From: Euonymus europaeus
Taxonomy: Eukaryota; Streptophyta; Magnoliopsida; Celastrales; Celastraceae
Direction: 5' to 3'
NCBI GenBank assembly: GCA_963580455.1
Contig: OY756961.1
Coordinates: 19,077,001-19,141,000 of the forward strand
Length of the DNA stretch: 64,000 bases
The notes below the pieces were generated by a model that saw only the letters and a program-made list of their open reading frames with translations, was not told where the DNA came from and searched no databases. Shown here piece by piece: positions 38,953 through 62,769 of the stretch. The stretch's first letter is position 1. The number at the start of each line of letters is the position of its first letter. Both the position numbers and the translations under genes were made by a program.

Positions 38953-38983
38953 GAAGTTCTTCCTGTGAACACCCAACATGCTT

Positions 38984-41900
38984 CTAAAAAAACTCAAACT
39001 TAGCTTTAGAAAGCGCCATTGTGAAAACATCTGCAACTTGAGCATCAGAATTGCAGAATAACAAACTTACTTCACCTGCTTTAATAGCTTCACGGATTGC
39101 ATGATATTTAACACTGATATGCTTTGTTCTTCCATGTTGAATTGGATTCTCAGCAATTGAAATTGCAGATTTGCTATCACTCCAAATGACTGTAGCTTCC
39201 AGCTGTGTGTTTCCCAAATCCTTCAATAATTTCCAAAGCCAAATGGCTTGATTTGTAGCACTAGCAGCAGCAATATATTCAGCTTCTGCTGTGGATTGAG
39301 CAACCACCTCTTGTTTTCTAGAACTCCAAGAAAGAACACCAGATCCTAATGTAAAAGCATACCCAGAGGTACTCTTAAAATCATCACTGCCAGCCCAGTC
39401 ACTGTCAGAATATCCTTCCAGCTTCATTTCTTCTGATTTTCTATACCAAATTTCATAATCTAAGGTACCTTTTAAGTACCTCAATACACGTTTAGCAGCT
39501 CCCATATGGATCTGACTTGGAGCAGTCATATATCTTGAGAGTAGACTTGTAGAAAACATGATATCAGGTCTGGTTGCAGACAAATATAGAAGACTTCCAA
39601 TTAGACTTCTAAAAGCTGTGACATCCGCCTTGCAACTGCCATCTTCTCTTTTCAACTTTTCATTCAACATCAAAGGTGTTGCTACAGATTTGCAACTCTC
39701 CATATTAAATTTCTTCAAAATATCCTTTGCATATTTCTGTTGTGACAGAAATATTCCATTATCAGTTTGAAATACCTCCATGCCCAAGAAATAACTCATC
39801 TGACCTAAGTCAGACATTTCAAATTCTTTCAGCATCTCCTCCTTAAACTGCTGCACAGAGATAAAATCACTTCCAGTGATTAAGAAATCATCCACATACA
39901 GAGATACAATCAACTGCTGTGAGCCACTTCTAACATATAAAGTCGACTCATTGTAGCTTCGTTTAAATCCATGCTCAATCAAGTAGGAATCAATCCTACT
40001 ATACCAAGCTCTAGGAGCTTGCTTCAAACCATAAAGGGCTTTTTTTAATTTATAAACTTTATCTTCCTTTCCAGCAATGACAAACCCATCAGGCTGTGAC
40101 ACATATATGTCTTCATTCAAGTAGCCATTGAGAAAGGCTGATTTCACATCCAGGTGGAAGATTTTCCAACCTAATTGAGCTGATAAAGCCACTAGTAGCC
40201 TGACTGTATCATGTCTAGCTACTGGAGCAAAAGTTTCAGTATAATCTAAACCATATTGTTGTGAATAGCCCTTTACAACTAATCTTGCTTTATGATTGTT
40301 GATTGTACCAACTGGATTGAGCTTTGTCCTAAAGACCCACTTTACTCCAATCACAGGTTGATCACTAGGCTTCTCTGTAAGTTCCCATGTTAAATTCTTC
40401 TCAATCATTGATATCTCCTCCTGCATTGCAACCATCCAGTGCTTGCTTTTGGCTGCTTCTGCATAGCTTGATGGCTCAGCAAGAGCTACATTACAGCTCT
40501 CATATATGTCTGCAAGAGACTTCATTTTAGGAGGAGGCTCATCAATAGAAGCATTATCCTCAAGATCAGCAATTTCATCAATTCTGGAATTTTTATCCTT
40601 CAAATCGCATAATTTCTTCTCCACTTTTTCAGAATCCCAATTCCATAAACTGTCTTCATCAACAGTAACATCTCTGCTAACCAAAAATTTCTTGGAATGC
40701 AAGTCATACAACCTATAGCCTTTTGACTGGGAAGAATATCCCAAGAATAAACCAATTGAAGCCTTTTCATCCAATTTTGATCTTTTTACAGAAGGAATAT
40801 GATAGTAACAAACAGATCCAAATACCTTCAAGTGACTAGCTGTAGGTTTTGCATCTGTCCAGGCTTCATATGGAGTCATCCCATCAACAGCTCTGGTTGG
40901 CAGCCTATTCAACAAATAAACTGCTGTATTAACAGCTTCTGCCCAAAATTGCTTAGGCAATTTTTTCTCTACAATCATACATCTGGCCATCTCCATGACA
41001 GTTCTGTTTTTTCTTTCAGAAACCCCATTTTGCTCAGGGGTGTAGCTAACTGTGAACTGACGCAGAATTCCTGCTTCTTGACAAAAGCGATCAAATGCAG
41101 AAGAAGTATATTCAGTTCCATTGTCTGATCTTAAGACTTTCAACTTTTTGCCACTTTGAGATTCAACTAGAGCCTTAAATTGTCTGAACACAGAAAAAAC
41201 TTCTGATTTTTCCTTCAAAAAATATACCCAAGTCATTCTGGTCAAGTCATCAATAAACAGAATGAAATATCTGCTTCCATTTAAAGAAGAGATGGATATT
41301 GGTCCACACACATCTGTGTGTACCAATTCTAATCTCGCTTTAGCTCTCCAAGCTTTATTAGAAGGAAATGAGGCTCTGTGAATCTTGCCTAGCTGACATG
41401 GTTCACAAACATCAGTGCTAATAGCACTCACAGTCAAGTCACTTATCAAACCCTTCGAGGATGCATACTTCAAGCCCTTTATATGAAAGTGACCAAACCT
41501 TCTATGCCAAAGTCTTGACTCGTCAGTAGAAACAGAAAAATTTGCATGAGTCATAGAACAATGCTTCAAGGAAAAACTGTTATCTCTCATTTCAATCTTA
41601 GCAATCAGCACATTACTATGATCATAAATAAAACAGTGATTATCATTAAACTTCAAAGAGTAACCCTTCTTCATCATTTGTGGTACACTGAGAAGATTTT
41701 GATTCAAACTAGGTACAAGCAAAACATCAGAAATATGCTTAATACCTCTTTTAGTTTGAATTTCAACTGTCCCCTTTCCAGCAGCTTTAACAAACTCACC
41801 ATTGCCCATTTTCACTGTTGTCTGGATTGAACTGTCAATAGAGGTGAATAAACTTGCATCCTTAGCCATATGACAGGTACAACCACTGTCAATAAGCCAT

Positions 41901-42910
41901 GAATTATCTGGAACAGATTGTGAAGTCACCATTGCAATGAAAAGATGATCCTCTTGTTGCTTCACTTGAACGTGATCTTCAGAAAAATTAGCCTGCTGAG
42001 ATGATGTATTCTCAGACTGTTTTTGTTTTATTCTGCAAAATTTCTCCACATGACCAGGCTTCTTGCAGTACCAACACTGAAGCTTAGGTCTTCCTTTCGA
42101 CCAACAATCTTTTTCAAGATGATTTGTATTTTTGCAATAACCGCATGGTGGATACTTGCCTTTTTTAGGAGGATCATTAAAAACTTCAGCTGCTTTGCCT
42201 TTACCACCCTTCTCAAAGCTTCCTCTTTTATTATCTCTCTGGAATGATGAACCCTGCTGTTGTTTGCCCTTATGTTTCATCTGAAATGCACCTTCAGTAG
42301 CACCCTCAGACTTCTTTGACAGCCTTAATTCCTGAGCTTGCAATTTGCTGCAAAGTTCGGAAATTGAAAGCTTTTTAAGATCACAAGACTCCTCAATTGC
42401 TGAGATTTTGGACTCAAATTTATCAGGCAAACTAATTAAAATCTTTTCCACCACCCTATGATCTGAAATATCTTCACCGTAAAGCTTCATCTGGTTCACC
42501 AACTCCATAAGTTTTGCTGAATAATCCTTAATAGCATCTCCTTCTTGCATCTTAAGCAATTCAAACTGCCTCTTTAAAGTCAAGAGCTTCTGTTGTCTCA
42601 CACGTTCACTACCTTGAAACTCTTCTTTTAACTTACTCCAAGCCTCTTTAACAGACTTGATGCCTACTATCCTTGAAAAGATAGTATCATCAATGGCTGA
42701 ATATAAAAAAGTTAGAGCTTTATAATTTTTCTTCTTCATTTCAGCATGATCCTTGATCTGCTGTAAAGTTGGATCTTCTGGTACGTCAAATCCTTCCTCA
42801 ACAATACTCCAAAGATCATGAGCCATAAAAAATGATTCCATTTTAACAGCCCAAAAATCATAATTCTCACCTTTAAAAACTGGAGGAGCTGGGAGAGAAG
42901 AAGCTGACAT
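38984..42910 (-). CDS. Ty1-copia gag-pol polyprotein
   Basis: This 1308-residue polyprotein starts at ATG 42910 (MSASSLPAPPVFKGENYDFW, context AAAAATG). In order: gag (about 1-230); two CCHC-like knuckles (CGYCKNTNHLEKDC, 256-269; CWYCKKPGHVEKFC, 279-292); aspartic protease (LIDSGCTCHM, D341); integrase zinc region (HRRFGHFH ... CEPCQLGK). The integrase core follows with HTDVCGPI, LRSDNGTEYTS and NGVSERKNRT (D, D, E kept), then reverse transcriptase (KWVFRTKLNPVG, YVDDFLITG) and RNase H (GYSDSDWAGS, AEAEYIAAA, ADVFTMALSKAKFEF). There is no internal stop. The C-terminus is cut by one extra A in a seven-A run (38986-38992), which shifts frame and removes about 15 residues that would have run into the LTR. 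Confidence 0.95.
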   Translation of the reverse strand: MSASSLPAPPVFKGENYDFWAVKMESFFMAHDLWSIVEEGFDVPEDPTLQQIKDHAEMKKKNYKALTFLYSAIDDTIFSRIVGIKSVKEAWSKLKEEFQGSERVRQQKLLTLKRQFELLKMQEGDAIKDYSAKLMELVNQMKLYGEDISDHRVVEKILISLPDKFESKISAIEESCDLKKLSISELCSKLQAQELRLSKKSEGATEGAFQMKHKGKQQQGSSFQRDNKRGSFEKGGKGKAAEVFNDPPKKGKYPPCGYCKNTNHLEKDCWSKGRPKLQCWYCKKPGHVEKFCRIKQKQSENTSSQQANFSEDHVQVKQQEDHLFIAMVTSQSVPDNSWLIDSGCTCHMAKDASLFTSIDSSIQTTVKMGNGEFVKAAGKGTVEIQTKRGIKHISDVLLVPSLNQNLLSVPQMMKKGYSLKFNDNHCFIYDHSNVLIAKIEMRDNSFSLKHCSMTHANFSVSTDESRLWHRRFGHFHIKGLKYASSKGLISDLTVSAISTDVCEPCQLGKIHRASFPSNKAWRAKARLELVHTDVCGPISISSLNGSRYFILFIDDLTRMTWVYFLKEKSEVFSVFRQFKALVESQSGKKLKVLRSDNGTEYTSSAFDRFCQEAGILRQFTVSYTPEQNGVSERKNRTVMEMARCMIVEKKLPKQFWAEAVNTAVYLLNRLPTRAVDGMTPYEAWTDAKPTASHLKVFGSVCYYHIPSVKRSKLDEKASIGLFLGYSSQSKGYRLYDLHSKKFLVSRDVTVDEDSLWNWDSEKVEKKLCDLKDKNSRIDEIADLEDNASIDEPPPKMKSLADIYESCNVALAEPSSYAEAAKSKHWMVAMQEEISMIEKNLTWELTEKPSDQPVIGVKWVFRTKLNPVGTINNHKARLVVKGYSQQYGLDYTETFAPVARHDTVRLLVALSAQLGWKIFHLDVKSAFLNGYLNEDIYVSQPDGFVIAGKEDKVYKLKKALYGLKQAPRAWYSRIDSYLIEHGFKRSYNESTLYVRSGSQQLIVSLYVDDFLITGSDFISVQQFKEEMLKEFEMSDLGQMSYFLGMEVFQTDNGIFLSQQKYAKDILKKFNMESCKSVATPLMLNEKLKREDGSCKADVTAFRSLIGSLLYLSATRPDIMFSTSLLSRYMTAPSQIHMGAAKRVLRYLKGTLDYEIWYRKSEEMKLEGYSDSDWAGSDDFKSTSGYAFTLGSGVLSWSSRKQEVVAQSTAEAEYIAAASATNQAIWLWKLLKDLGNTQLEATVIWSDSKSAISIAENPIQHGRTKHISVKYHAIREAIKAGEVSLLFCNSDAQVADVFTMALSKAKFEFF

Positions 42911-42973
42911 TTTTAATGCCTTAAACAAACTTTAATAGCCAAAAACTTACTTCACAGGTCCTCAAGACAACCT

Positions 42974-42986
42974 CGCTCCGATACCA
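42974..42986 (-). promoter_or_regulatory. Primer-binding site of the Ty1-copia element
   Basis: One base after the 5' LTR the minus strand reads TGGTATCGGAGCG. This closely resembles the initiator-methionine tRNA primer site (TGGTATCAGAGC) usual in copia elements; one base differs. Confidence 0.85.
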
Positions 42987-42987
42987 C

Positions 42988-43306
42988 TGTAAAAGAGACG
43001 ATCCAACTCTAATAAAACATAAACAAACAGAAAAGGTGGTAGTTTCCCTGCTGTAAGATAGTTGCAAGAAAAGAGTAGAAGGCTTGAGAAAACTTCAGTA
43101 GCAAGTTCTGGAAAAGTCTCTCAAACTCTTTTCATACCAAGACAACTTAAATACAAGATATTTTTTACAAGTCATGAAACATCTATAACCAAATAAAAAA
43201 ACTTAAACAGATCAAACATAATTTAACCAACAAAAATTATATTAAACAAAAGCAAAACCTTACAAAACATACACAGGAATATCTTCACAACTTCATAACC
43301 TCAACA
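42988..43306 (-). repeat. 5' LTR of the Ty1-copia element
   Basis: 319-bp direct repeat of 38622-38943, flanked on the right by ATACC. Confidence 0.93.
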
Positions 43307-43311
43307 ATACC

Positions 43312-46300
43312 TCCATAAATGTTGTGGATTATCTGGGACTCAACTTGGTGAAGGATTTCTATACTAAGATGATCAATTTGGTGAATCAAATGAGAATTTT
43401 GAGGGAATCAGTGATTGATCAGACAAGGGTTCAAAAGATGCTTATTAGTCTTCCTGAGAGGTTTGATGTTGTAGCTACTACTATCGAAGAGTCAAAGGAT
43501 CTCACTATCTTGAAACCTAAAGAGCTTGTGGGCTCTCTTGAGGCTCACGAGCATGGACGGCTTCGTTGTGCTGACCACAATCAAGCTTTGGAATCTACTT
43601 TTTAGGAAAATTTGAGCTTTACCGATGGCAAAGGAAGGTCAGTTGGTTCTTCTACATCACCCTGGCGAGGTAACTCTTCAAATTTTGAGCCTGGTTTTTA
43701 TAAGCAGTGTGATCTTTGTAAGAAGGTAGGCCAATTGGCTACCAATTGTTGGCATAAAGGCAAACCTCAGTGTCATCACTGTAAAAAGTTTGGCCACATT
43801 CAGAAAAATTGTAGGTTCAAGTCAGAGAATCATGCCAATCTTGCGGAGTTTAGTTCCTCATGTCCTTCTGAAGAGAATTTGTTTTATGCTACTCAAACTT
43901 CCTGTCTTCCTCATCCTACTGTCTAGTACGTTGATAATGGATGCACAAATCACATGTCTAGCCACGTAGCCTTGTTTGAATCTATCCATGATGTTCTACC
44001 TACAAATATTCGTCTTAGTGATGGTAAATTGTTAAATCTCAGGGGAAAGGGAGGGTGAAGATAGTCATTGCTGATGGTGTCAAGTTTATCTCCAATGTTT
44101 TGTATTTCCAGCATTGAGCAGTAATCTTCTCAGTGTTGGTCAAATGGTTGAAAATGGATACATGCTTGTGTTTAAGGGTTCTGGGTGTATTGTTATGATA
44201 AGGATGATGAAGATAAAGAGCTTTTGAGAGTACTTATGCAAGATCATAGGAATTTCTTGGTGGATTTTAAGGAGAAGGAAGTCACAGCTTTCAAGGCTGA
44301 AGTTGCTGGCTATGCAAATACAAAATTATAGCACATAAGGTTTTGTAATTTGAACACCACTGATTTGCAACTGTTGCAGAAACAAGAGTTGGTTCTAGGC
44401 CTTCCTTAGATACATGACCTGTGTGGAGTTTGTGAGAGGTGTCTCATGGGAAAGCAACACCGTGTTCCTTTTCCAAAGCAAGCCACTTGGAGAGCATCAA
44501 CACCATTATAACTCATTTATTCTGACTAATGTGGCCTTATGTCAGTGCCTACTTTGAACCAGTGCAGGTACTTCTGTACTTTTATTGATGATTTTACACG
44601 AAAAATTTGGGTTTACTTTCTCAAAGAGAAGTGTAGTGCTTTTTCAATTTTTCAAAGTTTCAAAACTTTAGTTGAGAAGGAGAGTGGCAAATTTATCAAA
44701 CAACTCAGGAGTGATCGAGGTGGGGAGTATACCTCCACTGTGTTTGAACAATTTTGTATGAAAGAAGGAATTGCTAGGCAGCTCACTACAGGTTTCAATC
44801 CCCGGCAAAATGGCGTTGCCGAGCGTAAAAATTGAACTATCATGGAGATGTCTCAAGCAATGATGTCTGAGAAAAATTTTCTTAAAAAATATTAGGCAGA
44901 GGCTGTCAATAGAGCCGTATTCATGTTGAACCTCTACCTTACCAAAGTAGTTCAGAACATGACTCCAAGTGAAGCTTGGTCAAGTTTAAAAACTTCGGTT
45001 TCTCATTTAAAAGTTTTTGGTTGTGTGTGCTATGCTCATGTACCTGTTGAGAATAGAACTAAGTTAAATTATAAGAGTCGAAAGTGTATCTTAGTTGGGT
45101 ATAACACTCAATCTAAGGCCTACAGATTGATTGATATGGAGACTGAAAAACTAGTGATCAGTAGAGATGTGGTGTTTGATGAAGACTATAAATGGAAATT
45201 CTCCTTTGACAGAGATATTGAGGCAGGTCAAATAGGTCTCTCCTTGTATGATACTGAATATGATTTGGAAGCCGTCGATGATGTTCTAGTTACTCCACAA
45301 ATGTCTCAGAATGTTGAGTCTGCGCCTCCAAATGTGCAGGCTGCTGTAGTTACAAATGATGATAGTGACTCTGAGGGAGCTCCACATAATATGAGAAGCA
45401 TTTCTAATATCTGTGCTACTTACAATCTGGCTATTCGCGAACCTGGATCTTATTTTTAGACCAAAACGGATCCTCTATGGTGCAAGGCCATGCAGGAGGA
45501 ATTTCATGTCATTCAGAAAAATGAGACTTGGGAATTGGTCAGTAAGCCTTCTGACAGAACTATTGTGGCAGTGAAATGGGTGTACAAACTTAAAATGAAT
45601 CCTGATGGCAGTGTTCATAAACACAAAGCACGACTTGTTGCTCACGGTTTTACCCAAAAATCAGTCGTGGATTTTTAGGAAACCTTTGCTCCTATGGCTC
45701 GCCTAGAAAATGTGCGACTTGTTTTCTCCTTAGCAGCTCAGAACCAATGGGCATTTCATCAACTGGATGTTAAATTAGCCTTTTTGAATGGTAAACTACA
45801 AGAGGAGGTTTATGTCGCTCAACCTGAGGGTTTCTTGGTGACCGGGGGAGAAGATAAAGTGTATAAACTTAATAAGGCTCCTTATGGCATGGCCTTAAAC
45901 AGTCACCGAGAGCATGGTATTCAGAGGTGGATAAATTCTTTATTACCAAAGGTCTCAAGAGGAGCAGAAGTGAGGCCACTTTGTACACACTCAAGGAAGA
46001 AGGTGCCATCTTGATTGTGTCCATTTATATAGATGATTTGGTTATTACAGGCAATAGTGAAAAATTGATCCAATAGTTCAAGTGCAATATGAAGAATATG
46101 TATGAGATGAATGATTTGGGCATGTGGAAATACTTTTTAGGGATAGTGGTGGATCAGTCTTCTGAAGGTATATTTTTATCTCAAGCTGCTTATGTGAAGT
46201 CTTTTCTGGAGAAGCATAATATGTTGGATTGTAATGTTGTAGCTATTCCCTTGGTTGTGAATGAAAATTTGTATAAAGATGAGGGATCTAAGAAGGTAGA

Positions 46301-48351: not shown

Positions 48352-48525
48352 CCGGCCACTGGTGTCAACGCTAGAGCAGGCAAATACCTCCCAAGATACA
48401 ACACTCCCTTCTATCGGTAGGTGACACAAGTATACCAGCAGGCTCGTTTGAACCAAAAATTGAAAGCACTCTCAGAAAGGAATTCGGATAGGAAGAAGAA
48501 GAGAGGAAAAATGACTTTTCGTAGT
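48352..48525 (-). repeat. LTR-X left copy, distal part (interrupted by the Tat element)
   Basis: The reverse complement matches about 63740-63906, including GAGCCTGCTGGTATAC and GGGAGTGTTGTATCTTGGGA. The match stops at about 48352, where the right copy continues, so this LTR is truncated or recombined there. It joins 62253-62769 across the Tat insertion. Confidence 0.8.
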
Positions 48526-49414
48526 TGTACGCAACAAATTTCGCGTGTAAATTAAATACACTTAAAACTTGGTACAAATTAAAAATTTATAAATCAAAGT
48601 AGACTCGATCTCTTCTCTTTGAACGTAATCGTCACGTGCGTAAATCCTCTGATTATCGATTGAATGGTTGGAGAAGAACGTAAAGTTCTTAATCGGATTA
48701 AACAAATCCGTTCTAAGTCTTGGCTTGAACCCGAGATTTAGAGGAATTCTAAGGATTCCGAATTTGGAGATCTTGGACTAAGAGAACTTGGCTTGGGACT
48801 TGAACTTGGAGGAATTCGAACGAATTCCGGATTTGGAGATCTTGGACTTGGAGCACTTCAACTTGAAGGAATTCTTGAATTCCGGATTTGGGACTTGCAC
48901 TTGATCTTGAAGAACTTGAACTTGAGACTTGAAAAACTTAAAGGAATTCTTGAATTCCAATTTGAAGACTTGAACTTGAAGAACTTGGATTTGAGACTTG
49001 AAGAACTTGAGGGAATTCAAAGAATTCCGAATTTGAAACTTGGACTTGTGGAGAATTTGAGAGAGTTTTCCCAAAGTTCGTAAACTTTCTTTTCTCCTCC
49101 CATTTCCACCAAATGAGCTTGGTATTTATAGGAAAATGGAGATGTGGAATTTACGTAACCTACCCTTGGCTTCAAACTTTGACATCAAGGGCATTGTAGA
49201 GAAATCACTTGTTTAGTGATTATCTCTTTGATTTTATTTTAATTTTATTTTAATTTGATTTGATTTGATTTAATTTGATATTATCTTAGATTTTATCCCT
49301 TCAACCAATTCAATTTGGTTTGGACTCTTCCAAAATTAAATTAATTAAATTAATCAATTCAATTTAAAGGATCTAACAATTTAATTATTTTTAAATTATT
49401 TTTTAATGTCTACA
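48526..49414 (-). repeat. 3' LTR of the Tat-lineage element (889 bp)
   Basis: Direct repeat of 61427-62247. It is longer by about 68 bp in three indels: about 24 bp near 48985, about 35 bp near 49190 and about 11 bp near 49395. It contains a run of degenerate ACTTGAA/GAATTC repeats (48770-49060) and a minus-strand TATA box at 49122-49130 (TATAAATAC). Confidence 0.93.
49122..49130 (-). promoter_or_regulatory. TATA box in the 3' LTR of the Tat-lineage element
   Basis: The minus strand reads TTCCTATAAATACCAAGC; identical in the 5' LTR at 62001-62009. Confidence 0.55.
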
Positions 49415-49427
49415 AATGCCCCCTCAA
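49415..49427 (-). promoter_or_regulatory. Polypurine tract of the Tat-lineage element
   Basis: The minus strand reads TTGAGGGGGCATT directly before LTR start TGTAGACATT. Confidence 0.75.
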
Positions 49428-50296
49428 GACTTAATTTATCAAAAATTAGATAATTTAAGTCTTGAATTGTTTAACAAGATTTGTTTTATCTAAACATAAT
49501 TTGACTTGAATTAGATAACTTGTACCTAAACTTATTTGGTCTAGGACACTAGAATGTAATTTAAGTTTAGTTTATATGAAAGCCCTCTATTTGTCTTTTA
49601 CTTAAAGACTTACACGCCACTTCTCATGAAAGAAAGTCAAATTCAATTAGAACTAGTATAGTGGACTTCCTATATAGATACACTTTAAGGGTTTTCAAAG
49701 TTTACAACTTTTGATGTCAATGGGATATTACATGGGTAGCCGTATGACTCAAGCTTGAAGAACATTAAGATAGCAAGCTCTTTAATTCCACCATTATTTG
49801 GCTCCCAATCTCCAATGCCTTTTTGAAGCTTTTGACTACACCATCAAGATCTTTTAGTATCACGTAAGTCTACTCTTGAAGAGTAAATCTGACATGTTGC
49901 TCAAGAAGATTTCAATTCAACTTAGAATCTCCTCTTAACGTGCTTTCACCTTTTTTTTTTCTGTTTTGATTTGGGGTTTTGGACTTAACACATATTTTTT
50001 TTTAGGTTATTGTCTTCTTGTTGGCACACATATCAAGGATAAAACAACAAGGTATTGTTTTCTCATCACATGATACCCAAGAATTTGGTAGTGTTCAACG
50101 TGCAACATGATTTTTTTTTTGTCAAAATTTTCAGATTTTTTTAGCAGTTTTTTTAATTTCTGCCAATATTTTTTATTATTTCTGGCAGTTTTTTTTTGAC
50201 AGCAGTTTTTTTTTTTTTTTGGCAGAATTTTTTTTTTTGCCAATTTTTTTTTTTTTTTGAGACTTACTTAAATTGACATTTTTTTTTGGTAGATAC
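49428..50296 (+). promoter_or_regulatory. Upstream region of the antisense PMD gene
   Basis: Non-coding stretch between the 3' LTR and the PMD gene start. A TATA-like CCTATATAGATAC lies at about 49669-49681. From 50110 to 50290 the plus strand is a series of T-runs ending TTTTTTTTTGGTAG/ATACATGG, which looks like a 3' splice site just before the ATG and suggests a leader intron. The LTR itself points the other way, so the gene probably needs its own promoter here. Inferred. Confidence 0.35.
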
Positions 50297-52555
50297 ATGG
50301 CTCCTTTCAAACCGAATTCAGCTCAAAAGACGGATTCTGAAAGTAGCACAAACTCTAATCCCCAATGGATTACAGAATCTAGTAATCCCAAACTTAAAGG
50401 GAAAACAATTCGTTTTCCGATGGCTTTTGTTGGACTTCACTCTTCTACAGGTATGCAAGGTTATCTCAAGCTTCATGTCAACAATGCAATGACTGGTCGC
50501 TTTGCTATGACAGGTGTCAACCGATTTCAAGCTTTGGACATGTCTTTGATTAGCAGATTCGAAGAATTGGCATCCAAGGATGCCCCTCGCTCAGGCCTAC
50601 CTTACTTGTGTACTCCACATCATACTGAGGATATTTTTATCCCACGACCTTTGATTGCCGAGAGTATTGGAAACAGACATGTTAGATGGGGGTCATCTTT
50701 GAACTCTAGAGAAGAGATTTTATATCTCAATGGCTTTTGGGACTGGTCCAAACGAGTTGCTAGACTCCTCAAAGATAGAGGCTTGGAAGACTTGTCGCTA
50801 GCAGTCCAAGCAGCTACGATGGAATATCATCGTCCTTCTTCAGCATATCGGGCTCTATGTGAGGTATGGTGCCCTGAAACCAATACCTTTGTGACGAGGC
50901 GTGGAGAAATTGGAATTTCTCTTTGGGAAATACGAGATATTTCCGGATTGTCCATACTTGGCGACTACTATGAAGAAGTTATTCCGAGTTTTAGGGAACT
51001 CACTGACGGAAAGTCCCTTCCGGAATCTTGTCTTCATTTGTTTAAAGCTTTCCAACATATAGCCGGAAAGAAAAAAGTGGACAGAATCAAACATGCACAT
51101 TGGATCAACTTTTGGCTTAGTGGAGTTTCTCGAAAATCTAATCCACGAGCAGATTCAAGGTATAAGAAATTAACAAACTTAGGAAAGTTTGAATTTCTAA
51201 AGAGTGGAACAACAACACGTGTGCGGCGACCCATAGTGATTCCGAACCAGAGTTTTCCTTCTGAAGAAATAAGGGATTTAGATTTTTTAACGGAATTGGA
51301 CCTTGAATTATCCACCGATAAAATTGATGAACTGGAGATAGCTGCATATTTCTCAATCTGGCTTTGTCGATTTGTTCTTCCATCTGGTGATGATAACTTG
51401 AGACCTGCAACTTTTAAAGTTGCTTCCAGGATGGCTTCAGGTGTAAGATATAGCTTGGTTCTGCCTGTTCTGGCGAGCATTTATAAGGGTCTTACCCAAA
51501 CTTTTACTTCTGATAAAAAAGACCTTGGAAGAGTTGTTCAATCATTCCCAGGGCACTTTCTTTATGGTTGGGTAGCATTGCATTTTCCTCGTGGCATATT
51601 TGACATTATTGACACATCTTTTGGGCGTCCCACCCTTAGGAGATATTCTGGAATTTTAAATGTCTATCAATTTTGGGAACCTAACATGATAGACTGCAGG
51701 AAACTTCTTCGTGGAGACATGGACTCCAAAAACTTTAAGTGGATTGCGAGTCACCCTCCAAAACAAGTTGGTAATCACACAGACATTGAAGGGTCTGTCA
51801 GAAGAGATTCAGGAATTTATGATCAGTATTCGACCTGCCTATTTACCATGTCGTCGGGGGTCATTATACACCTTGGAAGTGTATAGTCCACGTCGATTTT
51901 CGAGACAGCGTGGATTCAAGCAAATCAATCCTGGATTTCCGAATCCACCTTCTTTTGAGTTGAATCCGAGTATCCTTTACAGTTGTTGGTTAACTCTGAC
52001 GAGAGTGGGGAGTAAGGCTGAATTTCATGTTCCGAAGCCTTGTACAAATATGTGTGATCAGATTGATCAGAAATATGAAAATTGGTGGAACACTACAGTG
52101 GCTCCCATATTGCTTAACGTTTCCACTACTGTTTTGGAGAGTAGTGAACGTATTGATTTTAAACTTGTTGACAATATTGCATCTACATTTTCTCGGAAGA
52201 AAAGAAGAGTTGGAGAGAACGAGTCCATTCCATTGTCACTGAAAGAAAAGTCTCCCAATGTGGATTTAGACATTTCAGAAGAACGTGCTTTGAAGAAATC
52301 TAAAGCCGGAACTTCAAGGGAGAAAACTTCAGTAGACAAAATATTGCCGAAGGTAAAGTCTGCAGTTGTTGCAGTTCCACCCGAAGGAGCACTTATCGAA
52401 ATTGAGTCTACTTGTGGCTCAGATGAGGTACCACTAGTAAGGAAATCTACTCACCTTCGCTGTGAAAAACAAATTAATCTCAAAAATAGTACCAAAGATA
52501 TTCCTATGGAAGAAAAGAGTGACAAGAATCTCTCTCCACATTCTTGGAATAAAGG
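50297..52555 (+). pseudogene. Antisense plant mobile domain (PMD) gene, exon 1, with one frameshift
   Basis: ATG at 50297 (MAPFKPNSAQKTDSESS) opens a frame of about 529 codons that carries the plant mobile domain ('aminotransferase-like' PMD). Recognisable stretches are LNGFWDWSKRVARLLKDRGL, YRALCEVWCPETNTF, GEIGISLWEIRDISGLSILG, YFSIWLCRFVLPSGD and PGHFLYGWVALHFP. The frame ends at 51886, but the PMD tail (VYSPRRFSRQRGFKQ, FHVPKPCTNMCDQIDQKY) continues in another frame from about 51800 to 52555. A single frameshift therefore lies near 51780-51850. PMD proteins occur as host genes (MAIN/MAIL type) and inside transposable elements; their biochemical role is poorly known. The gene runs opposite to gag-pol. 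Exon 2 follows at 52641. Confidence 0.78.
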
Positions 52556-52640
52556 TATTCCCTTCTTTTCTTTATCTTGTTATCTATTATTTGCCAATTC
52601 GTCATTGGAAAATAAAATATGTTACTCTTTTTTTTTGTAG
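52556..52640 (+). other. Spliceosomal intron of the antisense PMD gene
   Basis: The donor AATAAAG/GTATTCCC and acceptor TTTTTTTTTGTAG/CTTTCGAT bound an 85-bp T-rich interval. Joining the sides keeps one frame across the junction (..SWNK then AFDNIPVGEM..). Confidence 0.72.
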
Positions 52641-53515
52641 CTTTCGATAACATTCCTGTAGGCGAAATGATTGCAGCCCTTGAGGGTTTTTCTGGTGGCA
52701 GCTTCCCAATCAATTGTCCATCAGGTGATCTTCCTGATAGTATTGGAGGTGGTGTTATTCCCTCCCTAAATTCTTCAGAGAATGGGAGTCTAAACTTGAG
52801 AGATGGAGGGGCCAATTCAAGGAAATTGGAACATAAAGTTTCCTCCCACAAATCCCCACAAGCGACTGTTGTTTTATCCGTATCAACAAATCATAAAGAT
52901 GAGTCACCATGTCCTTTAAATGAACATGAAGAAATGCTTTGTGAAGCAATGACGGCATATCTCGAAAAGGAATTTAGCAAGGCATTACATGGAGACCTAT
53001 CTGACTTGAGAGGATGGTGGAATCAGAAGTCATCCTGTTATAAAGACTTTTGTCATCAACTTTTTCATATTGATATTTCTCCCTTAATGGAAAAGGTTGA
53101 TGAATACTTGAATGACATTGACGATTTCCTTCATGAGGAGAATGACACTATACATCTTCCATCTCTAGAAGAAAAGCAAAAGGAGTTGGCTTCTTTGGAA
53201 GATCTTATTTCTGCTCGCATGCTTATTGTTCCAGATTTGACCAAGGAACGCCACAAGGTAGAGGCAGAACAAAAGGAAGTTAGACTTGAGATTTCTCGTC
53301 TAGAGAAGCAAGACAATGTTTTGTCCTCCAAACTTAGCTCCATTGATGAGAAAATGAAGAAAGAAAGTGAGGACCTTGATCAATTGAAGGAATCTCGTTC
53401 AAAGTTAGAGAAACTCCAAGTTAAGGATGCTATCACAACTGAATCGATTGCTAGATGAAAGGCAACTTTAGAAGAAGGATTTCGTGAACTACCAAATTGG
53501 ATCAATAAGCCTTAG
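52641..53515 (+). pseudogene. Antisense PMD gene, exon 2 (coiled-coil tail) with premature TGA
   Basis: The second exon encodes an acidic linker and then, from about EEMLCEAMTAYLEKEF onward, a predicted helical region. Its last ~90 residues (EEKQKELASLEDLISARM ... LKESRSKLEKLQ) are a regular coiled coil. A TGA at 53455-53457 (after TESIAR, fitting CGA to TGA) comes 19 codons before the next in-frame stop, TAG 53513-53515. The natural end was probably the latter (..ELPNWINKP). A coiled coil after a PMD suggests self-association or partner binding, which is inference. Confidence 0.7.
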
Positions 53516-53941
53516 GCATATTATTTCTTTATTTATTCTTGCATTTTTTTTATTTTTTTTAGCTAGTTCTTTTCTTTCATGTAATAAACATTCATATCAA
53601 TGAATTCACTTGCTCTATTTTTAGAATATTTTGTTGCACAATCAAGTACATTCAAAGATTCTCTCAAAGAAGAAACCTAAGAACTCATTTCAATATGAAT
53701 ACATATTGTCTCAAACAAGGGAGAACCTCTCTTTTTTTTTTTTTGAATTTGACTGAACTTGAGAATTCCCAAGCTGCCTACGTACCCCTTTTGAGGGATC
53801 AAGTCAAACGTAGTTCCATGCAAGGTTTTTTTTTTTGCCTAGACCGCCCTTTCGGGTTTTCAATCTAGTGAGTTTTTTTTTTTTTTTTTAGTGCCATTCA
53901 TAGTTTATACTCATATGGGCAAGGAGTATTACAATTTGTTT
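53516..53941 (-). other. Spacer between antisense gene and integrase, with conserved Tat motif
   Basis: Converging 3' ends: the PMD gene and the integrase both stop at this spacer. At 53773-53815 is CAAGCTGCCTACGTACCCCT followed by GAGGGATCAAGTCAAACGTAG, a non-coding motif I recognise from Tat/Ogre elements of many plants. At 53843-53889 a GGTTTTCAATCTAGTGAG motif plus T-run resembles 20884-20920 in the Ogre-like element. Function unknown. Confidence 0.5.
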
Positions 53942-56083
53942 CTAAGCGTAAAAACACTTCAAAATTTTTGCATTGATAGGTCCAATCCGTAGACCATCCT
54001 TATCGACAATCTTATAAGCACCATTTGAGTAAACCTCCGTGACTACATAAGGTCCATCCCATTTGGGTAGGAACTTGCCCCCAGTTCGACGAGTGATCAC
54101 GATCGGTCTTCTTATAGCCAAGACCAAATCTCCTACTTGGAATGATCGAGGACTTACTTTTTTATTAAAAGCTCTGGACATACGAGCTTGATAACATTCT
54201 AGTCGCTTTTGAGCTTCTAGCCTTCTTTCATCTAAGGACTCAAGTTCTTCCAACCTTAATTGGACATTTTGCTCCATGGTAAGGCCTTCCTAGATAGCAA
54301 TTCTGAGAGACGGAATTTGACATTCCAATGGTATCACTGCTTCAACGCCATAAACCAAAGAATATGGTGTGGCTTGTGTTGGTGTTCGATAAGTTATTCG
54401 GTAAGCCCACAAAGCTTCTCCTACTCTTTCATGCCAATCCCTCTTTGACTTGGAGACAACTTTCTTTAGCAAATTGCAGAGAGTTTTGTTAAAGTCTTTT
54501 GCAAGTCCATTTGCTGCTGCATTGTACATGGAGGAATTATGTTGGACAAAATGAAACTTTTGACAAAGTCTGTCCATTAGACTATTATAGAATGGCTTCC
54601 CATTATCAGTAATGATATATCGGGGAACTTCATACCTATAGATGATTTGACCTTGGATAAAATCTACAACGGTCTCTTTTTTAACTTCTTTTAATGGAAG
54701 TGCTTTCGCCCATCTTGAGAAATAATCCGTAGCTGCCAAGATATACAAGTGGCCAGCGGAAGATTTCGGATTTATAGGTCCCACAACATCTAAACCCCAG
54801 GCATCAAAAGGCCATGAAGCAACGGTCGGATGTAAGGGCTCTGGCGGTTGATGTATAAAGTTCGCATGGACTTGGCAAGCTTCACATCTTTTGGCATGGT
54901 CCATAGAATCTTTTACCATGGTTGGCCAATAATATCCCATTCTTTTTATTCGGAAGTGAAGTTTTGGTCCGGATTGATGGGCTCCACATATCCCAGAATG
55001 AGCTTCTTCCAGCACTTGATTTACTTCTTCTTTGCTTAGGCATCGAAGAAAAACACCGTCAAAAGAACGCCGATAAAGCGTACTTTTGTAATAAATGAAT
55101 TTGGGGGCACGTCGTCTCACTTCGGACTTGTGGGAATGATCACTTGGTAACTTTCCATATTGAAGAAAGTCAATAATTGGTTGCCTCCAATCTTCATTTT
55201 CTGTTTCGACTACTGAGATATTATTATTGACTTCCACTTCATCTTCAAGTGTCCATGATGGAATGATCCATTTTTGAGAAATGGACTTGACTGTGATGTC
55301 TATATCAGAACTAGCTAATACAATAGCTAAATTGGCCAATGCATCTGCTTGTCGATTTTCATTCCTTGGAACATGGATAATGCTAACCAAGTCAAATTGT
55401 TCCAAAAGCTTAGCTGCATGCTTTTGGTAAGGAATCAAATCAAGCTTCCGGACTTCATATTTTGATAAGAGTTGGTTGACTACCAACTTAGAATCTCCAA
55501 AAACTTCAAGTTGTCCGAGTTGCATTTCCAAAGCCATTTCCAAGCCAATTATCAAGGCTTGGTATTCCGCCACATTATTGGAACATGTTTCCATCAACGT
55601 GAATGAGAAAGGCATGACTTCATTTTGAAGAGTGACAAAAACTACCCCAGCTCCTGCACCATATTTTCGAGCAGCACCATCAAAGAACAATCTCCATAAT
55701 GGTATTACATCGGTGAAAAAGACTTCTTCATCTGGAAACTCTTCTGGAAGTTCCCACTCCGCTGGAATTGGATGGTATGCTAGAAAATCTGCCAAGATTT
55801 GTCCTTTTACAGACTTTTGAGGCACAAAGACAATATCAAACTCTGATAAAAGAAGTGCCCACTTTGCCAGTCTTCGAGATAAAATTGGCCTTGACATAAG
55901 GAATTTAAGTGGATCCGCCCCTGAGATTAAGTGAATCTCATGTGCAAGCATATAATGTCTCAGTTTCTTTGTTACAAAGACTAATGCTAGACACACCTTT
56001 TCAATTGGCGTATAATTTAACTCCGCTCCTACCAACGTACGACTCACGTAGCACGATGCACTTTCTTTCCCTTCATCATTCAC
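53942..56083 (-). pseudogene. RNase H, archaeal-type RNase H and integrase of the Tat-lineage element
   Basis: An open frame of about 597 codons carries the tail of RNase H (ELNYTPIEKVCLALVF) and the archaeal-type RNase H (LFFDGAARKYGAGAG, NNVAEYQALIIGLEMALEM, FGDSKLVVNQL). The H2C2 zinc region (EEAHSGICGAHQSG ... CEACQVHANF) and the integrase core follow. The core reads WGLDVVGPINP, RYIITDNGKPF and NGLAKDFNKT. In the third motif the catalytic Glu expected at NGLAE is Lys, so the integrase is predicted dead. A stop at about 54288 (after SLRIAI) splits off the C-terminal module, which goes on in frame (LPKWDGPYVVTEVYSNGAYK) to 53942. Confidence 0.87.
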
Positions 56084-56223
56084 TTGTCCAACAAGTGCTC
56101 CTAAGGACTGCTCTTGGGCAGCAATATATAGGATTAACGGCTTTCCGGCATTGGCGCCATCAGTACATGAGGTTTTAGAAGGTACTCCTTGATACTTTTA
56201 AATGCATTTCGGCAAGTATCATC

Positions 56224-57491
56224 CTATTTAAATGGGGTTTCCTTTTTCATCAACTTATTGAAAGGATGACATCGTCCAGCAAGGTTTGAAATAAACCTTC
56301 TAATGTATGCGAGCTTTCCTTTCAAGCTTTTCAGCTCATGTAAATTAGTTGGCTCTGGCATTTTCAGAATGGCATCGATCTTTGTTTGATCAATCTCAAT
56401 ACCTCGATGCCTTACGATGAACCCAAGAAACTTTCCAGAAGTGACGCCAAAAGCACACTTGAGAGGATTCATTTTTAATTGGAATCGACGAAGTCTTTCA
56501 AAGATAACTCGTAGATCCTCTAAGTGATTTTTACGATCCTTGGTTTTTACGACTAAGTCGTCTACATAACATTCCACCCTTTTATGCAACATGTCATCAA
56601 AGATTTTTTGCATGGCACGTTGATACGTGGCTCCGGCATTCTTCAATCCAAAGGGCATAACTTTGTAACAATATATTCCTTTTGGAGTATGGAATGCAGT
56701 GAACTCTTCATCCTTTGGGTTCATCCGAATTTGATTGTATCCAGACGAGCCATCCATGAAGGATAACACTTCATGTCCAGTAGTTGCATCCACCATTAGC
56801 TCTGTAATAGGTAATGGAAAATCATCCTTTGGACATGCTTTATTTAGGTCTCTGAAATCAACACAGACCCGGAGTTGTCCATTCTTCTTCATGACTGGAA
56901 CAATATTGGCGATCCATGTAGGATACTTAACTTCTCGAATGAATCCAGCTTCAATTAGCTTATTGACTTCATTCTCAATCTTTGGGATCAATTCCGGTCG
57001 GAATCGCCTCTGAGTTTGTTTGATAGGACGCACTCCATGTTTGATAGACAAATTATGGACAGCGATCCTTGGATTTGGCCCGAGATTTCTTTATAAGTCC
57101 ATGTAAACACGTCTATGTATTCTTGCAAAAGCTGGACGTATTTTGTTTCTTCTTCTGGACTTAAAAGTGTGCTAACAAAGGTTGGTCTTGGATCAGCTTC
57201 AGTTCCAAGATTGATCTATTTGAGATCGTCAACCGTAGCTTGCCCCCCTTCTTCAAAGGTAAGAGGTGCCAATGTAGTCTCTTCATCAGAAGATGACTCA
57301 GAACCATGTTCCTTTTCACCGATTTCTTCAATAGTGACATGGTTGATAGAAACAACCATCTTTTCTTTACCTTTGTTTCTAGCTGGAATGTTACGTCTAT
57401 GACGTCTTTGTCTTGTTTGTTTCTTTGGCTTCTCATTTTGGACTTTTGGCCCGAGCCTAGAAAATACAGAGACGTTTTGGATGGACTTCAT
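56224..57491 (-). pseudogene. Reverse transcriptase of the Tat-lineage element
   Basis: Recognised by LRVCVDFRDLNKACPKDDFP, LSFMDGSSGYNQIRMNPKDE, MPFGLKNAGATYQRAM and the active site ECYVDDLVVK near 56560. The upstream linker (57200-57491, ATVDDLK then a stop at 57218-57220) is in a different frame, with a shift near 57085. A stop after KETPFK at 56224 and a frameshift near 56100-56200 separate it from RNase H. Reverse transcriptase makes the cDNA; not functional here. Confidence 0.87.
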
Positions 57492-57521
57492 TTGGTTTGA
57501 TGTTGATGGATTATCACCTAG

Positions 57522-58715
57522 TCATTCAAATACAGAAATTCGAGTATTTTGCTCTTGTATTTGAGTCGAAGCAGGAGACTCCACAGGTCTTTCATCCTCA
57601 TACTCAAAGATTTGCACCATGATCGGGTTCGCTGATGCTTTCTTTGCTCTAATTCGGATAGGGCGTGAATTGTGAGAATCATGTCCCAATCCATGCTTTG
57701 GTTGTGGAATACATATTCCTTGTTTATTTATCACTGGAGCTCTTCCACTAGAAAGAATAGTATCAAGGTCACCCAGTTTAAGAGGTTCCCCTTTTCCATA
57801 TCCAGCTTTCTCAAAAAGTTTCTTCACACGTGGATCAAACCATGCATTTGAATGGTCTTCTGAAGTTTTAGGAAGCTCAGCTTCCCTAATATCTTTTGAT
57901 GTGGGAATCACTTTCTCAATAGAAGGATTCAAAAGAGTCAGATCTCCCTTGAGAATGTCGACATCACATTTAGACAACTCAATTTTTTGTGATTCTTTTA
58001 CAAAAATTCGAGACAAGATGTTCTCAGTTGAGTCATCTTTTTCATCATTTTTTGATTCCGGAATCAGCACTGGAAGAGCTTCTTGGGGAATATTTTCTTT
58101 TTCATAGAATTTAGCATCCGCAAAATGAGACTCCTCACTTGTAAATGGTCTTGACTCAGCTACAATGCATTTCTCTTCACCATCTCGAGTATACTTAAAG
58201 CATTGGTGCCATGTTGAAGCAATTACCCCAGTCTCATGCAACCAAACACGTCCTAGAAGTAATTCATAGGATGTTTTTGAATCAATTACATGAAATAGAG
58301 CCGATGAAACTAATTCACCCATCTCTATTTTCAACCGGATTGTGCCAATAACACGTTGCCCTTTTTGATTGAAGCCTTGGATTGTAAGTTTGCTTTTGGA
58401 AAGCTCATTCACCGAGATTCCAAGCTTTCTCAATGTATGGACTGGCATAATGTTTACAGCAGATCCGCAGTCAATGAGGATTTGAGAGACTTTGTGCTCT
58501 CGTATTAGTCCACTAACATAAAGTGGTCTATTATGAAGTCTTGTCCCAAGTTGAAAGTCATCGTCTGTGAAAGTAATGGTTGCCATACAATCAACAACAC
58601 TAACTTTACTTATATGGGAGAATACTTTCCCTCTATATTCTTTCGGATTGAGCAACATTTGAACTAAAGCCAAACGAGTATCCGTAGGGAGGTCGAGAGC
58701 TTCTGAGATGTTCAT
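57522..58715 (-). pseudogene. Protease region of the Tat-lineage element
   Basis: The protease active site reads SQILIDCGSAVNIMP at about 58500-58455, with Cys where Asn is frequent in this clade; the catalytic Asp is kept. YELLLGRVWLHETGVIAST follows, then a linker with KKLFEKAGYGKGEPLKLG. The latter may be a degraded G-patch-like segment. A stop after VFE (57522) precedes the reverse transcriptase linker. It would process the polyprotein. Confidence 0.8.
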
Positions 58716-58925
58716 ATTGGAGGGGATTTCCCGGAATGAAGTAACAACTCATTTTTCCTCAAAGCTAGAGGCTTCCCTCTTAGAATCATCTTTTTCTTCT
58801 TTTGACTCTTTAGAGTCCACTGCACTTATCATATATGTTGTCATATGTTCTTTTAGAAAGTAATCTCTTGGAAAGTATTCCTTAAGAGTTACTTCTTTTC
58901 GGGAAGTTAAATGAGTGTCATTGAG

Positions 58926-61358
58926 CTAAGTATCAACGCGGGTCTTTCTTCGATTTCTTCTTGGTCGATTCTTAGCTCGAGAGACCTTATTTTCTTTTCT
59001 AAGGCCAGACTCTTCATTTGGAACAGTAGCAATCGGACTTGGAAGAGCCAAAATTTGATTTGGACGGGATACACATCCTTTCTGACTTCTTACTTCCACC
59101 CAACCTTCATCTTGGCCTAGCAGTTCTTCCATATAATACCAACCAGTTGGTTGGTTTTTTGAGCACCATTCACTTCGAAGGAAATCCTCGAGATCCAAGG
59201 AAGGTGTTGCCAAATCCCACAACCTTTGTGGTCTATACTTCTCTTTTTTGGTAATAAAAGTGGACCACCCATCACCTACTTCATCTTCAGACTCAGATGA
59301 TGATTCCCACACATCCAGATCATCAGTCATGATTTTATACAAAGTTGGCCTATTAGGAGCTTGTGGTGGCGACATTCCTGGATATGTGTAAACTGTAGTA
59401 GCTTCATCATCTACAATAAACTGGACCCTTACGGCTCCTTCAGGTAGCTCAGCAATTAGCTCCATATTTGATGTTTCCTCTTTATGAGATAAGAAGATGG
59501 ATTGGTCTTCTACTTGTAGTGGAATAGGATCAAATGATCCAAAAGTCACCATCACACAATTAGCTTTGACATTACTAGTAAGATCAAGATCGATCTTGTT
59601 TTCCCTAGTCAATCGCATGATTATGTCCTTTAGAACAAAACATTTCTCAATCGGATGACTGATGATTTGGTGATATTTACAATACTTGGGATTATCAACT
59701 AGACCAACTTCTTCTGGCCTCTTTGAAATGGGAAGCTCTATGAGTTTTTGCTCCAGCAGTTGGTCAAGAATCCTAGAAACTTCAGAATCCGCAAATGGGT
59801 ATTCCTTTTCTTGCATTTGTTTCAAGGTTGGTCGTTCCTTGAATTGAGTTTGATCTTTACGAGTCTTAGGCTCGGATTTAGATTTCTTTGTGGAAATATT
59901 GACTGGATTAGTTGTGACAGCCATGGATTCTTTAGTCCGAGAGGGCTTTGAATCCTTTTTTACTTCTTTCTTTGTTTCTTTCTTTTCACGAGGATCACTT
60001 GGCAAATAGCTTCCATGTCTTGCTATTTGAATTTCCAAGTCATGGGCTCGAGTTGCAAGTTCCTCGAAGGAATGAGGCATATTAGCTTGAAGGAAGGTTA
60101 TATAGTAACCCCCAATGCATTCCTTGAACACACATATCAATGGAAGAGCTTTCGCTTATACGTTCCTTGCAATTTAGGACAAGGTTCCTCCAGCGCTCAA
60201 TATACTCAACCACAGCTTCTTCCTTATTTTGCCTCATCCTTGCAAGTTCTGAAAGACTAACAGTTCGTCGAGTACTGTAGAAGTGAGTTAGAAACTCATC
60301 CCAACCTTCAATAGAGCCCGCTGGAAGGTCGGTATACCATTCAAATGCGGCTTTTTTTAGGGAATGCATGAATTGTTTTACCATTGAATCACCAAACATG
60401 CCCGCATTATTGCAAGTTTCGATGAAATGAGCAACATGTTGTTTCGGATTACCCTTTCCATCAAATTGTTGGAACTTGGGGGCTGATAACCCCATGGCAT
60501 GCGAATCTCATCGATTCGACGACTATAGGGTTTTGCATAAACCAAAGACGATTGCGGGGCTCCACCATACTGAGCCCGGATTGTATCAACAATCATGTTT
60601 TGGAGCTGATTGATAGAGAGTGAAGCAACAGATAAGTGGGTAGAATCGCGGAGAGCATTTTGTGTTGTCAGACAATCCTGCTCTTCTTGCCTTTGTTGAG
60701 CTTTAAGAGAATTTGAACTTTCCGGTGCTTTACCTTCTCTTGAAACAAAAGTTTCATGGCTTTGTTCCGTGATTGGACTTAGGGAATCCAATCGCTTTAT
60801 GAGTGCAGCAATTTGTTTGTCCTTCTCTTCCAAGGACTTTGTCATTTGCTGCATGGCGGAAGTCATTTGTTTTAGCTGATCTTCCGAACTGGTTGTCGCC
60901 TCAGTCATCATGACTGGCACGGGAACATCAGATTCCGATGTACTGATGTCGTAAGCAGCACACTTCCATGATATCCACTGCTCAGAATGAGACTTAGACT
61001 TGGGATCATCATCCGAGTCACTGGAATATACATATTCCTTTTCTTTTGATTTGGGAGATGTGGACTCATCTTCTGAAGAAGAGGTGTAATCACCCCACTT
61101 TCTTGATGCCAACTTCATTGAATGAGATTCAGATTCATCATCTGAGGATTTAGAATGTACATCTTCCATAGATTTGGACTTGGACTTAGACTTAGTCTTA
61201 GTCTCAAGGGACTTTTTCTGACCCTTGTTTGAGAACTTCTTCAAAGGAGAAGTCAATTGTGATTCTCCAGCTTTAACTCGCGTACGAGTTGCATGGGAGA
61301 CTTCGTCAATGACATCAGTCTCCGTTATGGGAATCAAGGATTCATTCGTAGATTCCAT
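58926..61358 (-). pseudogene. gag of the Tat-lineage element
   Basis: Starts at ATG 61358 (MESTNESLIPITETDVID) with a long Ser/Lys/Asp-rich, low-complexity N-terminus. The capsid (Retrotrans_gag) domain lies at about 60480-60100: PKFQQFDGKGNPKQHVAHF, ALKKAAFEWY-like KKAAFEWYTDLPAGSI, and YIERWRNLVLNCKERISESS. A CKYHQIISHPIEKC motif near 59680 is the single zinc-finger-like signature of Tat gag. The capsid part is shifted relative to both sides, so two compensating frameshifts lie near 60490-60400 and 60140-60090. Stops at 58926 and about 58746 close it before protease. Confidence 0.82.
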
Positions 61359-61402
61359 TATTTTGATTTGAAAATTCAATCAAGAGATGAGAGGAGAAGA
61401 GT

Positions 61403-61420
61403 GTCCCACCGGGTGTGCCA
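61403..61420 (-). promoter_or_regulatory. Primer-binding site of the Tat-lineage element
   Basis: Six bases after the 5' LTR the minus strand reads TGGCACACCCGGTGGGAC. TGG at the start and high G/C fit a tRNA 3' end complement; I could not assign the tRNA. Confidence 0.65.
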
Positions 61421-61426
61421 GAAATT

Positions 61427-62247: not shown

Positions 62248-62252
62248 GTAGT

Positions 62253-62769
62253 GTCTACTCTTCTTACACTATGCTTCTATTTATATTAGAGTCTAGCATT
62301 AAAACCGACCCTAAAACTAGGGATGCCAAATAAATTTCAGTAATAAAGTGAATTTAAAAATTGTAACGGACATTTTTGAATTTGAATTGTCCTCATGTCC
62401 ACATACAATGAACCTAGGTAGTGGGCCGGTACAAAATGATAAGTCAAGATGGGCTACGGACACGCAAGTCCATCACAAAAGCTTGGGTGCCCTTGGGCCC
62501 AAGTCTTACATCCAACACTTCACATACATCACAATTCTTTAATGTGAGATTCCCACATCTCTCTTAATTTTGCACATAATATATCATGTCTAACATGACC
62601 ACTTTGGAGTCAATTTTCATTCAACCAAAAAATGGTTTTGGACAACTTTCAACTCCAATATCTAATTTTCATATTGAAGATTAAAACCCACTAAATTACA
62701 TTTAACTAATACTCAATTAGTTGTAATTAATTATTGGTCAAATAGTGGTTAACCACCATTTTTCCAACA
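62253..62769 (-). repeat. LTR-X left copy, proximal part
   Basis: Reverse complement of 63200-63730, starting (minus strand) TGTTGGAAAAATGGTGGTTA at 62769. Shared landmarks are GGTTAACCAC, ACTTGGGCCCAAG and CTAGTTTTAGGGTCGGTTTT. A TATA-like box on the minus strand (TATAAATAG) lies at about 62276-62284. It is continued at 48352-48525 beyond the Tat insertion. Confidence 0.85.

Follow-up and report, generated by a model that had tools for sequence, protein, structure and literature searches.

The plant mobile domain (PMD) was, according to later papers, first reported in the extra open reading frames (ORFs) of Tat retrotransposons by Steinbauerova in 2011. Antisense accessory genes are common in plant long terminal repeat (LTR) elements, and their function is unknown. 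In the portions of the literature available to us, PMDs and antisense genes are described in several settings. PMD clades found only in gypsy elements, PMD-A1 and PMD-A2, are distant from MAIN-LIKE (Ikeda et al. 2017, PMC5418596), 57% of Ogre elements have a PMD (Neumann et al. 2019, PMC6317226), and among the unusual domains that one screen found in plant LTR elements, the PMD was the commonest (PMC9289625). Antisense coding regions were present in all of the recent Retand clusters surveyed, with Transposase_28 in 97% (Vicient 2025, PMC11963269), and the antisense gene of maize Grande has its own promoter and encodes a nuclear protein, GENE23 (PMC7264820). Plant LTR elements are described as intronless, with Ogre and EVADE as notable exceptions (2025 review, PMC12786077). 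Here we describe a PMD gene that lies antisense in a Ty3/gypsy LTR retrotransposon of Euonymus europaeus. We analyzed a window of 64,000 nt (assembly GCA_963580455.1, contig OY756961.1, 19,077,001-19,141,000), and all coordinates below are positions in this window. The gene is probably a damaged copy of an old antisense accessory gene of Tat-clade Ty3/gypsy elements; this probability applies to its anatomy and to the kind of gene. The sequence shows the anatomy, the homology of the two exons and the age of their fusion, and from it we infer that such a gene is transcribed and spliced and that a protein is made.

The plus-strand gene and its relatives

The retrotransposon is on the minus strand and spans 48526-62247, flanked by the target site duplication GTAGT (48521-48525 and 62248-62252). 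One minus-strand ORF (54293-56197) has matches to RT_RNaseH (18-120), RVT_3 (172-291) and integrase (389-559) in Pfam, and the reverse transcriptase (RT) ORF (56227-57090) adjoins it. In angiosperms, the Tat subclades Ogre and Retand are recognized by an additional RNase H located after the first and before integrase (PMC6317226). Based on this order of domains, we assign the element to the Tat clade. The PMD gene is on the plus strand, opposite to the RT, RNase H and integrase ORFs. The 3' LTR lies on one side of it and the end of pol on the other, and the gene and pol are convergent (tail to tail).

We found that the gene has more coding capacity than expected by chance. The longest plus-strand open stretch in 50297-53515 is 529 codons, starting from the ATG at 50297, compared to at most 203 codons in 500 dinucleotide shuffles. 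The Pfam check gave a match to PF10536 on 50297-51883 with 75.4 bits (cut-off 34.9; E 6.1e-21). The best relative, P0003 from Tripterygium wilfordii (LOC119998390, 806 aa), is 85% identical, scores 993 bits and stands for a cluster of 9 members. Another relative, found with profile A1, stands for a cluster of 24 members. Clusters of this size are as expected of repeated genes.

The first exon is in two parts. The first part (50297-51787) contains the ATG, the N-terminus and most of the PMD, with 425 of 498 residues identical to P0003. P0003 matches one frame up to ~51787 and another from ~51795; that is, there is a frame break in the PMD at approximately 51788-51805, and the ORFs at 50261-51886 and 51693-52640 are in different frames. 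By frame alignment, the PMD is uninterrupted in P0003 and broken in this copy. The second part (51795-52554) contains the end of the PMD, a basic cluster (SRKKRRV) and a linker with RKSTHLR. The counterparts of these two motifs in P0003 are SRRKRKA and RRSTRLR, and two Abeliophyllum proteins have RRKRSTRL.

Exon 2 (52641-53455) contains more of the linker, a conserved helical segment (AMTAYLEKEF...LRGWW...DISPL) and a coiled coil. It is homologous to the C-termini of eight of the 24 relatives that we fetched (E 4e-24 to 9e-11 within this set of 24 sequences). Three of the eight are from Abeliophyllum (an asterid), four from Rubroshorea (a rosid) and one from Tetracentron (Trochodendrales). PF10536 is listed for seven of them; no domain is listed for the eighth, P0014, yet both PMD pieces from the window align to it. 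Because exon 2 is common to eight of the 24 relatives across these lineages, the fusion of the PMD to this C-terminus is old and no accident of this locus. Exon 2 ends at an in-frame TGA (53456-53458). In six of the eight aligned relatives the homology continues beyond the TGA toward a TAG (53513-53515), where the homologous region ends.

When exon 2 alone was compared to the protein database, none of 1194 candidates was confirmed. The candidates were limited to proteins of similar length, so this result was partly expected. We also looked outside plants. Viral contigs gave five pattern matches with profile A1 and prokaryote contigs gave 53 with P0003; no relative was confirmed in either set. 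A match of profile A1 to succinate dehydrogenase was rejected, since A1, the profile used for the viral contigs and for the 24-member relative, included P0013, whose gene model contains a fusion to that enzyme.

The two exons are separated by a putative phase-1 intron of 86 nt (52555-52640). Its borders, AAAG/GTATTC and TTTTGTAG/CTTTC, would join the frames in phase. T makes up 52% of the intron, compared to 30% and 28% of the exons. Identity to P0003 is 86% (105/122) in the last part of the PMD, 69% (91/132) in the linker up to the donor and 36% (9/25) past the donor. We aligned the spliced reading to six relatives (P0021, P0022, P0023, P0014, P0024 and P0004). Two of these, P0021 and P0022, both from Abeliophyllum, were gap-free over the junction (SPHSWNK/AFDNIP compared to SPQTRNAGNNEN and SPQTRNAGFPKIP). 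In another relative, P0009, HFFL is joined straight to GFPKIP, as if a pyrimidine tract and an acceptor had been translated. At the matching place, P0003 runs on into FFFFFFFLGSFR. Our reading is that a phase-1 intron is conserved here and is treated unevenly by gene models, and 52555-52640 is presumably spliced out.

There may also be an intron in the 5' untranslated region. The candidate (50052-50292, 241 nt, 55% T) has the borders AAG/GTATTG and TTTGGTAG/ATACATGG, and its donor is a guess. In P0003, SRIK-D directly precedes the MA start, and SRIK can be read at 50033-50044. We aligned the first 16 residues of P0003 to 49415-50296 using degenerate codons. The score was 6.0, below the mean of 7.6 for 60 shuffles, and the SRIK site was not picked. 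Because the leader alignment scored below the shuffles, the weak support for this possible intron comes from the appearance of the sequence and the match of four residues. There was no plus-strand ORF of at least 150 aa in the 869 bases upstream of the ATG (49428-50296). From the LTR to the ATG, the TATA patterns used matched the plus strand only once, at TATATA (49671-49676), a weak candidate promoter; AATAAA (53583-53588) is behind the gene. These motifs and the convergent layout would fit an independent transcript, although motifs this short prove little.

A preliminary description of this stretch had proposed a two-exon PMD/coiled-coil gene opposite to the gag-pol of a Tat-lineage element. 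Homology supports this proposal: the strands, the PMD and the RVT_3-type second RNase H are as described above, and the helical C-terminus is seen in the homology of exon 2 and in a structural model (below). The T-rich, 3'-splice-like site noted before the ATG was also found, ending at 50292 (ATG at 50297). Other details had to be corrected. The GT..AG borders and in-phase joining of the intron held, with a length of 86 nt and not 85. The frame does start with an ATG, but exon 1 is not a single open frame because of the change near 51790. The gene had also been taken to be open to the stop at 53513-53515, and an in-frame TGA comes first, at a point beyond which six of eight aligned relatives continue.

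Function and alternative explanations

The most likely function of this gene would be that of a nuclear regulator of the silencing or expression of its own element. The gene would be transcribed from the strand opposite to pol, and the transcript would be spliced at the conserved phase-1 intron and perhaps in the leader too. The product would have a PMD, a linker and a helical, coiled-coil tail. This nuclear protein could oligomerize via the coiled coil and act on the chromatin or transcription of its own element, as a regulator or as a factor that counters silencing, and intact copies could serve broken copies in trans. Counter-silencing has been proposed for transposon PMDs (PMC8616336) and for the PMDs of Mutator-like elements (MULEs) (PMC5418596), in the parts of these papers available here. 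It is suggested for transposon PMDs because the host proteins MAIN and MAIL1 act in silencing. For the gene described here, a counter-silencing role in particular is a tentative proposal. In suggesting that the gene might modulate host silencing, the preliminary description made the same proposal as the literature.

The preliminary description had held that a retroelement gene with an intron survives reverse transcription only by being antisense to the genomic RNA. In principle this is sound. The genomic RNA would carry the complement of the intron, which stays unspliced there, unlike the intron of a sense gene. It also agrees with the position of the intron being apparently conserved, although this is based on two relatives.

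Several findings weigh against the reading that we favor. First, this copy is broken at two places, the frame change near 51790 and the TGA at 53456-53458, and therefore it is unable to encode the full protein. Second, the junction was gapped in P0023 and P0014, there was a gap near it in P0024, and the alignment of P0004 ended earlier. That is, the exact junction is backed by two of six relatives, from one species. The T. wilfordii model (P0003) reads into the intron and does not have exon 2. Third, only five of the 24 proteins that we fetched had the basic-cluster patterns; these five included two MAIN-LIKE proteins and no protein from Rubroshorea or Tetracentron, so nuclear entry through these patterns would not be general. 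Fourth, the relatives are known from proteins alone, in which a retrotransposon setting and strand are not visible, and the gene described here is known from its sequence alone. Lastly, PMD function is described as unresolved even for host proteins, in the part of the literature that we cite for it (PMC8616336).

We considered a more specific version of the counter-silencing idea. The PMD might share the fold of the anti-silencing protein VANC21, and the gene would then be a retrotransposon's VANC-like, DNA-binding anti-silencer. Its PMD would read short repeats in the element, with the LTR minisatellites that have GGAATTC and AACTTGA units as candidates, its coiled coil would oligomerize, and its intron, preserved by the antisense position of the gene relative to the genomic RNA, would date from before rosids and asterids separated, more than a hundred million years ago. 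If this were true, MAIN/MAIL, which act in silencing in the host, would be related to an anti-silencer of transposons. The idea comes from a low-confidence model of P0021, which had a fold match to VANC21 (9lnj). Profile A2, from which this model came, had 20 rows, made up of 18 of the 26 proteins then available and two window pieces, and included P0013. The model is helical at residues 811-984, with predicted local distance difference test (pLDDT) values, by tens, of 62-92, as would be expected for the helical segment and coiled coil, and the PMD was modeled less well. Among the Foldseek matches listed for it, 49 of 50 fall in residues 805-985, in the helical tail, and are uninformative on function.

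The model of the PMD fragment from the window had a pLDDT of 41.5, which is too poor for a comparison to VANC21, and VANC21 was not among the 11 matches listed for it. Neither the P0021 model nor the window-PMD model had a Foldseek hit in PDB at E up to 0.001, and the window-PMD model had none among viral structures at the same threshold. No solved structure among PDB chains was related to the PMD by sequence, using P0003 or profile A4 (23 rows, with P0013 and P0015 left out; E up to 10). We also searched nine proteins, including eight PMD relatives, for DUF1985 in Pfam and found none at E up to 10; the HMMER filters drop most matches above ~0.1. We found no link between the PMD and VANC in the published literature searched. 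We consider the VANC-like version unlikely.

It is also possible that the antisense region works as RNA. A plus-strand transcript could pair with the genomic RNA and lead to regulation by double-stranded RNA or small RNAs, with the protein being secondary. This possibility has been raised for antisense transcripts of LTR elements, in the part of the review available to us (PMC7264820), and the broken state of this copy as a protein gene is consistent with it. In contrast, protein homology of both exons is kept between rosid and asterid species, and identity to P0003 peaks in the PMD and drops in the linker and intron, the pattern of protein constraint (in a comparison of proteins, not of nucleotides). 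Based on these findings, a role as RNA seems quite unlikely.

We think it very unlikely that the gene is a host gene freshly captured by one element and without a role there. Hosts do have PMD genes (MAIN/MAIL), and having an intron is typical of host genes. However, the close relatives stand for clusters of 9 and of 24 members, albeit known as proteins and not in their genomic settings. Furthermore, two MAIN-LIKE 2-like proteins scored 41 and 37 bits compared to 993 for the best relative; we did not find close similarity to MAIN/MAIL (PMD-C). Gypsy PMDs are also placed in clades of their own in the part of that study available here (PMC5418596).

Finally, that the intron is accidental, exon 2 belonging to a separate ORF or the frames being joined by chance, is highly improbable: the T. 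wilfordii model does end in the intron, and exon 1 has a plain frame break, so that a change of frame in this copy is not in itself a sign of an intron, but the same two parts are joined in one predicted protein in eight of 24 relatives, two relatives are gap-free over the junction, and the intron is T-rich with an exact GT..AG.

The rest of the element and its surroundings

The LTRs of the Tat-clade element (minus strand) were defined by LTR alignment, their ends and the target site duplication. The 3' LTR is at 48526-49414 (889 bp) and the 5' LTR is at 61427-62247 (821 bp). They are identical in 805 of 872 columns (57 gap columns), with 10 mismatches in 815 aligned bases (1.2%). Because of this low mismatch, the insertion is young, about half a million years old at a rate of 1.3e-8 substitutions per site and year. 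Minisatellite-like repeats in the LTRs (48786-49048 and 61620-61927) have CTTGAACTTGAAGG-like and GGAATTC units. GGAATTC occurs 26 times in the window; 18 of these are in the Tat element, 17 of them in the LTRs. The element was inserted into one arm of a long inverted repeat, splitting it (48352-48510, 62248-62763 and 63200-63906; arms 92-96% complementary).

What remains of gag-pol (54293-61379, minus strand) is interrupted by stops and frame changes, and therefore this copy is not autonomous. The ORFs at 60381-61379 and 58929-60155 are called gag from position only, as no gag domain was matched by Pfam in the ORFs of the element. The ORF at 57525-58748 matches protease, below the Pfam cut-off.

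There are other mobile elements in the window. A giant Ogre-like element (12857-37055, minus strand) has LTR pieces at 12857-15529 and 34711-37055 that are ~95-96% identical, and ORFs for integrase (24552-25532), RT (26497-27249) and a G-patch protein (28233-28868). On its 5' side it has a sense ORF of 518 aa (32620-34176) that matches DUF7745 (1.4e-43) and, weakly and below the Pfam cut-off, PMD (2.2e-5). Since this ORF is sense and the gene of the Tat element is antisense, the window has a PMD-like accessory gene in both positions. We compared profile A4 to a DUF7745 protein, one Transposase_32 ORF and one other ORF using hhalign and found nothing significant. Transposase_32 (PF20167, "putative plant transposon protein") is matched by three ORFs, at 9264-10559, 16529-17179 (below the Pfam cut-off) and 21117-22250. 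A compact Copia element (38621-43314) has an intact polyprotein of 1315 aa and LTRs that are 97% identical, and looks recently active. A hAT transposase with an open frame of 704 aa (752-2866) has a BED finger, an RNase H fold and a dimerization domain.

Comparison with known systems

Much of what is described here has a counterpart in print. The preliminary description had called the gene a candidate for a poorly described system, which is only partly true. Gypsy PMD clades, PMDs in Ogre, antisense ORFs in Retand and the counter-silencing idea have all been published. We found no published account of an intron in the antisense accessory gene of an LTR element, in literature that did not cover Steinbauerova et al. 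2011, and this could be wrong. A 2020 review, in the part available here, urges the study of antisense and spliced transcripts (PMC7264820). An apparently conserved intron supplies an exact splice junction, which helps to separate true antisense genes from chance ORFs. The gene is also a substrate for asking whether retroelements encode anti-silencing factors related to host MAIN and MAIL1.

The HBZ gene of HTLV-1 is likewise accessory and antisense and lies close to the 3' LTR of its retroelement, and its transcript is spliced. HTLV-1 is an animal retrovirus, and we claim no homology. A nuclear role is described for HBZ in the part of the source available to us (PMC11963269). The VANC proteins of the VANDAL MULE, as far as the portion at hand describes them (PMC5735166), belong to another class of element; we found no sequence match between them and this gene.

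The closest comparisons are with other plant Ty3/gypsy elements, and they are drawn from the available parts of three studies. Like Ogre (PMC6317226), the element described here belongs to the Tat clade and has a PMD and a second RNase H placed between the first and integrase. In Ogre, gag-protease and RT are separated by an intron. The corresponding region of this element has long frame 0 segments (61379-56991) split by stops, followed by RT in another frame; it is decayed and shows no clear intron. A primer binding site for tRNA-Arg is a trait of Ogre; just inside the 5' LTR of this element (61403-61420) there is a primer-binding-site-like sequence, TGGCACACCCGGTGGGAC, to which no tRNA was assigned. 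The Retand ORFs (PMC11963269) are likewise antisense and between pol and the 3' LTR, and some have Smc-type matches, which we gloss as coiled coil. They differ in having Transposase_28; PF04195 had no match at E up to 0.01 in three plus-strand pieces here. Introns are not described in the available part of that study. With PMD-A1/A2 (PMC5418596), the gene shares a PMD encoded within a Ty3/gypsy element and its distance from MAIN-LIKE. This likeness is by location inside a gypsy element and not by placement in a tree, and the available part of that study does not discuss intron, coiled coil or strand. Compared to these systems, the gene belongs to a known kind of accessory gene, of which it is a variant with two exons and a conserved helical tail, present here in a broken copy.

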